Shown here one piece after another: positions 40,701 through 49,700 of a stretch of DNA of 64,000 nucleotides. The position numbers were made by a program, and so were the translations under genes. The notes under the pieces were generated by a model. The model made no database searches. It saw nothing but the letters and a program-made list of their open reading frames with translations, and was not told the DNA's origin. How positions within the stretch are numbered: position 1 is the stretch's first letter; every line of letters starts with the position of its first letter. The stretch covers positions 35,696,528 through 35,760,527 of the forward strand of contig CAIIXF020000012.1 of assembly GCA_903813345.2 (NCBI GenBank), read 5' to 3'. The stretch is from Owenia fusiformis (lineage: Eukaryota; Annelida; Polychaeta; Sabellida; Oweniidae).

Positions 40701-43700
40701 AGAAGAATTGTAAAGCGTTCAATTGCATATGACTAATTGATTATTTGACATGCCCTTGGAATATATGAACATTCCAATACCTCTGTAACATTTAATCAGA
40801 AATAAATCTTACCTATTTGTTATTGTATTATGTTTTATGAAACATGAACAATGATTTGTTGTTTGACCCCTTGCGATGATATCGAAAAATTCTGGTAATA
40901 AAATGTTTTTAATGGTAAGAAGACTAATATGTTCCCAATCATAAATTTCTTAAATATTCAACAGAATTTTCTGCTTGGCTCATATTTGAAAAATCAAAAA
41001 AATCTGAAAAATACACTTGCGTAATTACATTAAAAACCGACATCTACAATAAAATTATAGTATATTTTTACATTATGATAATCTATTGTTTGTTCGTATG
41101 AATAATGGTGTGTGTCTTATAAAATGTATAAAAGTTCGAATCAAAATATTTACGTTTTTTGACCCCTTGTGATGTTAGACATTTTCAGACCCGAACGGAA
41201 GTTTTTTCAGCAAATGGTATTTTAAAAGAATCAAGACATATGCACCTCCATAAATATTGCTTCAAATGTTGCTGTGCTATAGTGTGCTACGGATCCTTCA
41301 TATTCGGAAGTCATACCATGGACTACTACTCCGTGCATGATATTTGTTTTGAATTTATATTACTGTTTGTAATAGCTGTTTGTGCCTAATCACGAGAAAA
41401 ACGCAAACAAATATCATTATTCAAATGATTAAGCCAAACACATGTGACAACGAATACCCAATGGAAGTAATTGATATCAGGGCCACATTAGGTGCTGGTG
41501 AATTTGGAGTTGTAAAACTAGTGAATGTTTCAAATATCACTGTTTGTGTGATTTAGCCAAACACATCTGACAAAGAATACCCAATGGAAGTTATTGATAT
41601 CGGTGCCACATTAGGTGCTGGTGAATTTGGTGTTGTAAAACTAGTGAATGTCAATGACGAGATGAATGCGCCATTTATGGCCGCTGCGAAGATATTAAAG
41701 GGTAAATTATACTGCTTAGTGAATCTCTTCAAACCATTTCATAATGCTTGATTTTTCCACGATTTTGTAGGCAAAATCTACTCTATCATCATTCCGGCGT
41801 CCCCTGAGTCCTTCGTTCGCAAACAAATATATTTCCTAAATATATGACGTTGATAAACTAATGTGCCAAAAAGGTCGTAAAAATTTTGTCAACATCTCCT
41901 GGAATCATGGAATATGAAAAACCGTACCTCCGTCCGAGGCTGTAACATTTTATTACCAATTTGAAAAGTCCCAATACAGTGTATATAATAGGAATTGTGT
42001 CTCAATATGCATTAAGAATAAAGTTTATTTTCTTTTTTGATATTACTTTGGTATACCTTTTTGCAGATAATGCATCAGATGACGACCACAAGGCTCTGCT
42101 TCGTGAATTGGATCTAATGAAGCAGTTACCAAAACATAACACTGTGGTAGAACTTCTGGGTTACTCAAAATACAATGGTACGATATTTTATGATGATACT
42201 ACATACTGTATATATCAGCCTATTAGGCTTTAAGTTTCATCCATCCTCTGAACGCAGGGATCAAGACAACCTATACTACATCCCTTCATTGTTTCGGAAA
42301 TAGCGACTTCTAAAGGCATGTGTTCGAAAGATGGATTTAAGTCCTTGGATATCTGGCAAAGCAATAATGAGATATTTTTATATTTCTAAACAGGGCTTTT
42401 TACTTTTGTAGAATTGTAATGTTTTAACGAATGAAGTGAATTGTATGTCAACTATCAATTATATCAATACTTTATTTATCTTTAATAGTTAATTATCTTG
42501 ATCCATTCTTCATATTGTCAATACCATAATCCTTTATAATAAACTTATTTGATCATATATTATCCTTTATATAGACCAAACAATGATCCTTGTTGAGTAT
42601 CTACCCATGGGTGACCTACATATTCCTATTTGACATCATATTCCCATTTAATATCATATCCTATTTACAGACCAAACAATGATCCTTGTTGAGTATCTAC
42701 CCATGGGTGACCTACATATTCCTATGTGACATCATATTCCCATTTAATATCATGTCCTATTTACAGACCAAACAATGATACTCGTTGAGTATCTACCCTT
42801 GGGTGACCTACATATTCCTATGTGACATCATATTCCCATTTAATATCATGTCCTATTTACAGACCAAACAATGATCCTTGTTGAGTGTCTACCCTTGGGT
42901 GACCTACATATTCCTATATGACATCATATTCCCATTTAATATCATGTCCTATTTACAGACCAAACAATGATCCTTGTTGAGTATCTACCCTTGGGTGACC
43001 TACATATTCCTATGTGACATCATATTCCCATTTAATATCATGTCCTATTTACGGACCAGACAATGATCCTTGTTGAGTATCTACCCTTGGGTGACCTACA
43101 TATTCCTATTTGACATCACATTCCCATTTAATATCATATCCTATTTACAGACCAAACAATGATCCTTGTTGAGTATCTACCCATGGGTGACCTACATATT
43201 CCTATGTGACATCATATTCCCATTTAATATCATGTCCTATTTACAGACCAAACAATGATCCTTGTTGAGTGTCTACCCTTGGGTGACCTACATATTCCTA
43301 TTTGACATCACATTCCCATTTAATATCATATCCTATTTACAGACCAAACAATGATACTCGTTGAGTATCTACCCTTGGGTGACCTACATATTCCTATTTG
43401 ACATCATATTCCCATTTAATATCGTGTCCTTCTTACGGACCAAACAATGATACTCATTGAGTATCTACCCTTGGTTGATCTACATATTCGTGTTTGACAT
43501 CATATTCCCATTAATATCATGTCCTATTTACGGGCCAAACAATGATACTCATTGAGTATCTACCCTTGGGTGACCTACATATTCCTATTTGACATCATAT
43601 TCCCATTTAATATCATGTCCTATTTACAGACCAAACAATGATACTCGTTAAGTATCTACCCTTGGGTGACCTACATATTCCTATTTGAGATCATATTGCC

Positions 43701-46700: not shown

Positions 46701-49700
46701 GGACCAAACAATGATACTCATTGAGTATCTATCCTTTTGTGACCTACATATTCCTATGTGACATCATATTCCCATTTAATATCATGTCCTATTTACAGGC
46801 AAAACAATGATACTCGTTGAGTATCTACCGTTGGGTGACCTACATATTCCTATTTGACATCATATTCCCATTTAATATCATGTCCTATTTACGGACCAAA
46901 CAATGATACTCGTTGAGTATCTACCGTTGGGTGACCTACATATTCCTATTTGACATCATATTCCCATTTGATATCATGTCCTATTTACAGACCAAACAAT
47001 GATACTCGTTGAGTATCTACCCTTGGGTGACCTACATATTCCTATTTGACATCATATTCCCATTTAATATAATATCCTATTTACAGACCAAACAATATAA
47101 TACTCGTTGAGTATCTACCGTTGGGTGACCTACATATTCGTATTTGACATCATATTCCCATTTGATATCATGTCCTATTTACAGACCAAACAATGATACT
47201 CGTTGAGTATCTACCGTTGGGTGACCTACATATTCCTATTTGACATCATATTCCCATTTAATATCATATCCTATTTACAGACAAAACAATGGTACTCGTT
47301 GAGTATCTACCCTTTTGTGACCTACATATTCCTATGTGACATCATATTCCCATTTAATATCATGTCCTATTTTAGGACCAAACAATGATACTCATTGAGT
47401 ATCTACCTTTGGGTGGCCTACATATTCCTATTTGACATCATATTCCCATTTAATATCATGTCATATTTACAGACCAAACAATGATACTCGTTGAGTATCT
47501 ACCCTTGGGTGACCTACATATTCCTATTTGACATCATATTCCCATTTAATATCGTGTCCTTCTTACGGACCAAACAATGATACTCGTTGAGTATCTACCC
47601 TTGGGTGACCTACATATTCCAGTTTGACATCATATTCCCATTTAATATCATGTCCTATTTACGGACCAAACAATGATACTCGTTGAGTATCTACCCTTGG
47701 GTGACCTACATATTCCTATTTGACATCATATTCCCATTTAATATCATGTCCTATTTACGGACCAAGCGATGATACTCGTTGAGTATCTACCCTTGGGTGA
47801 CCTACATATTCCTATTTGACATCATATTCCCATTTAATATCATATCCTATTTACAGACCAAACAATGATACTCGTTGAGTATCTACCCTAAGGTGACCTA
47901 CATATTCCTATTTGACATCATATTCCAATTTAATATTATGTCCTTTTTTACGGATCAAACAATGATACTCGTTGAGTATCTACCCTTTGGTGACCTACAT
48001 ATTCCTATTTGACATCATATTCCCATTTAATATCATATCCTATTTACGGACCAAACAATTTACTTGTTGAGTATCTACCCTTGGGTGACATACATATTCC
48101 TATTTGACACATATTCCCATTTAATATCATGTCCTATTTACGGACCAAGCGATGATACTCGTTGAGTATCTACCCTTGGGTGACCTACATATTCCTATTT
48201 GACATCATATTCCCATTTAATATCATATCCTATTTACAGACCAAACAATGATACTCGTTGAGTATCTACCCTTAGGTGACCTACATATTCCTATTTGACA
48301 CATATTCCCATTTAATATCATGTCCTATTTACGGACCAAGCGATGATACTCGTTGAGTATCTACCCTTGGGTGACCTACATATTCCTATTTGACATCATA
48401 TTCCCATTTAATATCATATCCTATTTACAGACCAAACAATGATACTCGTTGAGTATCTACCCTTGGGTGACCTACATATTCCTATTTGACATCATATTCC
48501 CATTTAATATCATATCCTATTTACAGACCAAACAATGATACTCGTTGAGTATCTACCCTTAGGTGACCTACATATTCCTATTTGACATCATATTCCCATT
48601 TAATATCATGTCCTATTTACGGACCAAACAATGATACTCGTTGAGTATCTACCATTGGGTGACATACATATTCCTATTTGACATCATATTCCCATTTAAT
48701 ATCATGTCTTATTTTCGGACCAAGCAATTTACTAGTTGAGTATCTACCCTTGGTTGACCTACATATTCCTATTTGACACATATTCCCATTTAATAGCATG
48801 TCCTATTTACGGACCAAGCGATGGTACTCGTTGAGTATCTACCCCTGGGTGACCTACATATTCCTATTTTATATCATTTACCATTTACAGACCAAACTAT
48901 GATACTCGTTGAGTATCTACCCTTGGGGGACCTGCAAAGCTACCTACGGGCCAACAAAGCAAAATACATCAGGTCTGATAAGTTGGATACCAGTAAAGAA
49001 TTGATACAGTTTGGATATCAGATTGCGTGTGGAATGAATCACATATCATCTTTCAAAGCAAGTGATTTTCTTAGTTCTTGTGTAAATTGATCATTTACGG
49101 TGGTTTTACTTGGGTAAATGTCTAGTGTTTGAGCATGTATGCTTGATAAAGAGGCAATGCATTGAAAGTTATTTTCGTTATTATATCCAACATAGGTTAT
49201 GCCACGCATAGTATCAAATGTACATATCTTATCTACTTTGTAATACTTATAGTACTTCAGACCGTTCACACAAAATGCTCATGGCTCTCTATTTCTAGTT
49301 TCTGCACCGTGACCTTGCCGCCAGGAATATCTTACTGAGTGCAAATAAAGTTTGCAAGATCTCAGACTTTGGTCTCTCAAGGGATGTTGGTGAAAGAGAT
49401 CTGTACAGTAGAACGTCACAAGTAAGTCATTTAGTTGTTTGAATCATCAAAGCAGTGTATGACTTTGGTCTCTTAAGGGATGATGGTGAAAGAGATCTGT
49501 AAAGCAGAACGTCACAAGTAAGTCATTTAGTTGTTTGAATCATCAAAGCAGTGTATGACTTTGGTCTCTCAAGGGATGTTGGTGAAAGAGATCTGTAAGC
49601 AGAACGTCACAAGTAAGTCATTTAGTTGTTTGAATCATCAAAGCAGTCTATGACTTTGGTCTCTCAAGGGATGATGGTGAAAGAGATCTGTACAGTGGAA

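Follow-up and report, generated by a model that had tools for sequence, protein, structure and literature searches.

We report that a receptor tyrosine kinase gene of the annelid Owenia fusiformis carries, in front of its kinase hinge exon (exon 9), a 6.3-kb tandem array of 66 copies of that exon's own intron/exon boundary. The gene lies in a 64,000-nucleotide stretch of assembly GCA_903813345.2 (contig CAIIXF020000012.1, forward strand, positions 35,696,528 to 35,760,527), here called the window, to which the coordinates below refer unless another locus is named. The array belongs to a known class of boundary minisatellites, the mirages of amphioxus, within which it is unusually large, and this class recurs in unrelated genes of the same genome. 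We consider it probable that the exon 9 array is a tolerated minisatellite, with its terminal copy taken by the spliceosome as the splice site and with units that turn over in a roughly neutral manner while the kinase stays constrained.

Anatomy of the exon 9 array

Analysis with Tandem Repeats Finder (TRF) revealed a single array at 42573-48887 on the plus strand, with a period of 96 bp, 65.8 copies, 93% matches, and a score of 10744. An anchor taken from the exonic part of the unit matched 67 times, at 66 array units and at the true exon 9, and the 66 anchor spacings were 96 bp in 55 instances, 95, 97, or 98 bp in ten, and 78 bp in the last. The unit listing and the composition showed that the units, mostly 96 bp long, consist of an intron tail of ~51 bp, which contains an 18-bp subperiodicity, and an exon head of ~45 bp (exonic part, ~43-46 bp). 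An earlier note, made from the letters of this DNA, had claimed about 66 tandem 3′ splice sites before the hinge exon, a 96-bp unit of intron end, acceptor, and some 45 exon 9 bases, and no donor within the units; these measurements bear out all three claims, the last by a search of the array for the donor motif GTRAG, which gave 0 matches. A 6.3-kb array with 93% matches is no chance event, and the array is real.

The array lies between exon 8 (42067-42177, plus strand), which supplies the donor side of the intron, and the true exon 9 (48891-49057, plus strand), which has its acceptor AG at 48889-48890 and a GC donor (AAA/GCAAGT); both exons were located by tblastn matching and by sequence. 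The same GC donor also ends exon 9 of the tandem paralogue, gene 1 (28845-29011). When the frame was carried on from exon 8, an early stop was encountered in 65 of the 66 units. The earlier note had predicted, for every unit but the last, an in-frame TGA right after the hinge, and this is correct for the 58 units that share one TGA after the hinge peptide or a close variant, while units 25, 30, 34, 48, 56, 58, and 65 stop at other places; unit 66 has an open frame through the true exon 9, yet its acceptor is GG. Cassette or mutually exclusive exons would have their own acceptor and their own donor in each copy, and the array contains no GTRAG match. NAGNAG tandem acceptors lie only a few bases apart and produce small in-frame differences, whereas the array acceptors are ~96 bp apart and 65 of 66 lead to an early stop.

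Unit 1 (42540-42594, plus strand) has an intron tail of local type, TTTATATAG followed by ACC, which can be aligned with intron 8 of the paralogues g1 and g3, while in the last unit the tail is similar to that of g4 intron 8 (91% over 93 bp, mostly exon). Given these differing tails, unequal exchange between paralogues is a possible origin of the intron part of the array. Local turnover is visible in a block duplication, with units 36-39 differing from units 40-43 at 1, 2, 0, and 0 positions, respectively; units 1, 65, and 66 are divergent, and unit similarity was 0.931 at lag 1 and 0.923 at lag 24, adjacent units being barely more similar than remote ones.

Acceptor state and strength

Among units 2-66, 37 of 65 acceptors were AG and 28 were GG, so that the mixture which the earlier note had described was recovered, with GG commoner toward the 3′ end; in units 27, 34, and 51, which were scored as GG, an AG is present one or two bases further upstream. 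AG is found both at unit 1, with its different intron tail, and at the true exon 9. With a score matrix from 71 distinct acceptors (75 of the 85 sought were found), the true exon 9 acceptor scored 2.5, at the 25th percentile of the 71, compared with a mean of 3.2 for the 37 AG decoys and 5.2 for unit 1. Since the true acceptor is no stronger than the decoys, the choice among them, if splicing is normal, would have to be made by position.

The host gene and its paralogues

The window holds two tandem receptor tyrosine kinase paralogues on the plus strand, gene 1 (~22.3-32.4 kb; exons 2-13 matched by tblastn at 22282-32386), which lacks an exon 9 array, and the array-bearing gene 2 (~34.9-61.2 kb; exons 2-13 at 34938-61229); in neither gene does a stop occur in the matched part of any exon. 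The query peptides were taken from these two genes, and the search covered exons 2-13. Gene 2 encodes immunoglobulin (Ig) domains, a transmembrane (TM) segment, and a tyrosine kinase; Pfam analysis of its joined exons gave Ig domains and PF07714, and the PDB chains nearest to its kinase, among the best 60 of 855 matched sequences, are named EGFR, FGFR, and RET. Over 272 kinase codons, dN/dS was 0.10 between gene 2 and gene 1 and 0.11 between gene 2 and g3. Thus, the kinase of gene 2 is under purifying selection, with dN/dS of ~0.1.

Junction copies are not confined to the array that the earlier note had singled out, as structures of this kind are also present at further exons, in paralogues, and in other gene families. 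Within the kinase family, an edge-copy test on 98 exons of 11 genes (the member g8, loci L011 and L012, being outside the test) identified 19 exons with extra copies of their own edge; the exon 9 array itself occurs only in gene 2, in 1 of 11 exon 9s tested. One of the 19 is exon 4 of g5, which was copied as a block comprising the whole exon. The other 18 are small-unit cases, at exon 9 and at exons 3, 5, 7, 8, 10, and 11 of gene 2 or its paralogues, and all 18 have the same geometry: 16 are acceptor-type with copies upstream, and 2 are donor-type with copies downstream, of the true exon, so the extra copies fall in the intron. Two details depart from it (g5 exon 3 has a larger block copy as well, and 1 of 25 g3 exon 11 alignments passes the exon end by 4 bp), and the 18 cases are not independent, exons 3, 5, 7, 8, and 11 each being affected in more than one paralogue. 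In g5 (L006/L007), an Ig-exon block is duplicated, one of the copies of exon 4 contains a stop, and exons 12-13 have no match in the piece examined; g4 (L004/L005) has a frame break in exon 13.

The donor-type counterpart in gene 2 is the exon 10 mirage (49365-50724, plus strand), built of the exon 10 end and GTAAGT, in which the true exon comes first and is followed by 14 downstream copies with the anchor used. A non-LTR (long terminal repeat) retrotransposon (~50727-54255; endonuclease PF14529 and RVT_1) is inserted within this mirage, and two further units, recognized by sequence match, resume past its A-rich end at 54255-54420 (plus strand). Gene 1 has an acceptor-type mirage at exon 11 (29516-31339, plus strand; 131-bp unit, 14 copies, the last being the true one), and exon 11 is present in 26 copies in g3 and 3 in g5. 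Across these exon 11 arrays, pN/pS was 0.51 for 36 decoy copies (4 of 40 having been removed as misaligned or frame-shifted) and 0.04 for 7 true exons (Fisher P = 1e-6), which indicated that the decoys are relaxed. Smaller acceptor-type duplications, all on the plus strand, were found at exon 7 of gene 2 (41408-41651; 123 bp, 2 copies) and, in gene 1, at the TM exon, exon 5 (26160-26661; 169 bp, 3 copies), exon 7 (27544-27790; 123 bp, 2 copies), exon 8 (28159-28395; 2 copies), and, in diverged form, exon 3 (22882-23059; 77% identity, 2 copies).

Mirages in unrelated genes

Outside this family, at least 1 of 13 control kinase loci has a mirage, a 26-bp donor-type array of ~20 copies at 4151-4656 of locus L023, a kinase that we label ALK-like and that matches Pfam PF07714. 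Among 10 sampled P450 loci, three, and perhaps four, contain one: L056 (1407-1730; donor-type, 28 bp), L058 (2077-2824, minus strand of the locus; acceptor-type, 86 bp), and L059 (6-1161; acceptor-type, 96 bp), with L054 as the fourth, donor-type candidate. The mirage exons of the first three each have relatives in other loci, on which the coding support for L058 and L059 rests, whereas a search for a homologue of the L054 exon elsewhere in the genome found none. The L056 peptide matches the P450 profile weakly (E = 0.003, below the curated cut-off), no match to this profile was obtained with the L058, L059, or L054 peptides, and no good PDB chain match was obtained for L058. Two other repeats were rejected as mirages, L060 4687-5339, which lies beyond the gene's apparent stop, and L054 3257-3921, which is intron only.

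An automatic edge test on the controls flagged 0 of 52 kinase exons and 6 of 63 P450 segments, but it missed the mirages of L023, L054, and L059, which are known from TRF output and reading; the control counts are therefore lower bounds. Three of the six flags trace to one exon duplication in L055, and the flagged L059 segment differs from the mirage there. The P450 locus L055 has a 240-bp exon-bearing duplication with 98% identity (3878-4632, minus strand of the locus).

Splice signals are kept to different extents in these arrays. With true copies counted, AG was retained in 14 of 14 exon 11 copies of gene 1, 24 of 26 in g3, 3 of 3 in g5, 8 of 9 units in L058, and 9 of 12 in L059, and GT in 13 of 15 units at exon 10, 10 of 11 in L056, 4 of 4 in L054, and 9 of 20 in L023. 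General selection on mirage acceptors was rejected, as the exon 11, L058, and L059 counts show neither general loss nor general protection.

Other features of the window and the genome

Open reading frames at 10397-19130 match an ARM repeat and, below the cut-off, TIR, and we label them SARM1-like. Large minisatellites lie outside both kinase genes at 75-2205, 5537-7900, and 13234-14109, with units of 25, 29, and 36 bp, respectively. Elsewhere in the genome, eleven homeobox matches are located at 17.97-18.47 Mb of contig C1, and in one of them the homeodomain is followed by KLTGP, a mark of spiralian Lox5; for Owenia fusiformis, 11 Hox genes are reported from chromosome 1 (PMC9977687). A search with mitochondrial COX1 gave no match.

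Relation to known systems

In the arrays described here, the tandemly repeated units span an intron/exon boundary of their host gene and splice signals persist in many, although not all, units; both kinds of boundary are represented in gene 2, by the exon 9 acceptor and the exon 10 donor arrays. The earlier note's proposal that a splice-junction satellite is an undescribed class thus has to be given up, since amphioxus mirages have already been described, as boundary minisatellites in Adh3 and the globin genes BflGb6 and BflGb9 (PMC3087553) and also in troponin C and PGBD5 (PMC3902484). In those accounts, reverse transcription-PCR is reported to show that mirages with intact signals leave splicing normal, and the arrays are described as unstable in length, between alleles and somatically, with concerted evolution inside and divergent boundary units (PMC3087553, PMC3902484). 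The likeness extends to the signals, AG or GT being intact in many but not all amphioxus units, as in the exon 9 array. The differences lie in scale and host: 6 and 3 units are given for two haplotypes of BflGb6, compared with 66 units and 6.3 kb here, and in Owenia several exons of one gene are affected, in a spiralian. A literature search of a partial collection turned up no title that concerned annelid mirages; the scale and host of the exon 9 array are apparently new.

Human genes offer further parallels. In F7 intron 7, with 37-bp repeats, only the most upstream 5′ site, adjoining the exon body, is reported to be used normally (PMC6627357); here, too, a splice junction is copied in tandem, but on the donor side and with a 37-bp unit, which places it closer to our exon 10 array than to the exon 9 array. 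The CBS 844ins68 insertion duplicates a splice site, and a strong preference for the more distal copy leads to removal of the extra exon segment (PMC2630376); the passage concerned says "donor" for the intron 7/exon 8 junction, while the title it cites refers to 3′ splice site selection. This insertion is a single extra copy, unlike the 66-unit array, and the 31-bp variable number tandem repeat (VNTR) of CBS, c.1444_1467+7(16_21), whose name implies that exon end and intron start are spanned (PMC2630376), is on the donor side; both are human polymorphisms. Internal tandem repeats at exon-intron boundaries are also reported from human segmental-duplication paralogues (PMC2812944); these resemble our arrays in being boundary minisatellites of recently duplicated gene families and differ in having ~30-bp units, ~4 copies, and a repeat that is either retained in the exon or spliced out. 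For earthworm metallothionein, fourth-exon duplications absent from the transcript and an intronic minisatellite are reported (PMC12783039), a case that may be related to mirages.

Origin and tolerance of the array

We suggest that the array began as a small tandem duplication spanning the boundary of intron 8 and exon 9 and that this seed expanded into a minisatellite, in part by block duplication. A duplication across an acceptor would leave the functional copy last, and one across a donor would leave it first; in both situations the additional copies become intronic, as in the 18 small-unit cases. At exon 9, the last copy is the one continuous with the remainder of the exon, and all those before it come to lie in the intron. 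The spliceosome would then join exon 8 to the terminal copy, the site probably being picked by exon definition, in which it pairs with the exon's own donor, 167 bp downstream, or by another position-dependent rule. By analogy, exon definition would fit the site choice reported for F7 (PMC6627357) and CBS 844ins68 (PMC2630376). The array would thus be tolerated, with approximately neutral turnover, while the kinase stays under purifying selection.

Several observations weigh against this explanation. The constraint on gene 2 could for the most part be older than the array, because dN/dS averages over the whole divergence, and the exon 11 decoys fall short of full neutrality (pN/pS 0.51, binomial P = 0.015). 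In 12 of 21 cases, a repeat of the kinase family takes in an exon edge, compared with 3.9 expected by unit-length placement. With length-preserving placement, however, 9.2 were expected (P = 0.11), and in control kinases 1 of 8 repeats was at an exon edge versus 2.9 expected; the stronger null is unreliable because the paralogues share ancestry and the family was picked for its array, and targeting of repeats to exon edges was rejected, the two nulls being in conflict. No column of the unit varies more than that of the acceptor, which shows the minor state in 28 of 65. By parsimony on a tree built without the acceptor column, this column required 9 changes, compared with 8 for the next column and a mean of 1.08 over 103 columns, whereas on a tree including it, it required 4, and two other columns were higher (8 and 5). 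Furthermore, GG rises toward the 3′ end (6/22, 10/22, and 12/21 by thirds, P = 0.012), and the last three decoys, units 64-66, all have GG. Such acceptor variability and 3′ enrichment would not be expected under plain neutrality. However, a CpG transition separates CGG from CAG, and the genome is CpG depleted (observed/expected 0.51 for the window, 0.54 for the exon 9 array), so CGG-to-CAG changes are plausible, the change may have run in either direction, and neutral turnover with CpG bias may be enough for the acceptor pattern.

The GG gradient would also be expected if the array were junk and units near the true exon had been disarmed from AG to GG, as exon definition could not exclude them. 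Such selection against nearby decoys, which would add to a tolerated array and is compatible with it, is unlikely but deserves the most weight among the alternatives, as the gradient and the GG state of units 64-66 agree with it; against it, the nearest decoy keeps AG in the gene 1 exon 11 array, in L058, and in L059, GG-bearing blocks were duplicated locally, and CpG mutation can give the same pattern. The variability of the acceptor column could instead reflect a regulatory splice decoy, whereby transcripts spliced into the array would stop early past the hinge and undergo nonsense-mediated decay or yield a truncated receptor, with copy number and the AG/GG mix tuning the amount of functional kinase. 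The retention of AG in 37 of 65 units with flanks scoring like many true acceptors, and the early stop from 65 of 66 units, speak for this. Yet GG is present at 28 of 65 acceptors, normal splicing is reported for amphioxus mirages whose signals are intact (PMC3087553, PMC3902484), and the array is present in 1 of 11 exon 9s, so that any decoy role would be specific to one paralogue; we regard the decoy as rather improbable. Slightly less credence still is due to the wider proposal that mirages are a genome-wide, fast-turning annelid class and that the 66-copy array acts as a decoy, with copy number and AG/GG mix determining the level of intact kinase and varying between individuals.

Two further alternatives concern the gene and the assembly. 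If gene 2 were dead and no longer needed splicing, the array would be without consequence, and some relatives do look damaged (g5, with exons 12-13 unmatched and a stop in an exon 4 copy, and g4, with its exon 13 frame break); but the absence of stops in the matched exon parts of gene 2 and its kinase dN/dS of ~0.1 make this very unlikely. Tandem arrays are hard to assemble, and the unit number may be wrong; that read errors or mixed haplotypes produced the array altogether is the least probable account of all, in view of the structured unit differences (93% matches) and block duplications, the similar arrays with other units at other loci, and an Owenia fusiformis assembly reported to be built with PacBio and Bionano data (PMC9977687).

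The interest of the array lies in what it places before the spliceosome, as dozens of near-equal acceptors before one exon are a natural test of site choice at equal strength. The mirages in spiralian kinase and P450 genes suggest that the class is not peculiar to lancelets and that boundary minisatellites could be a wider source of intron gain and of allele-specific splicing.

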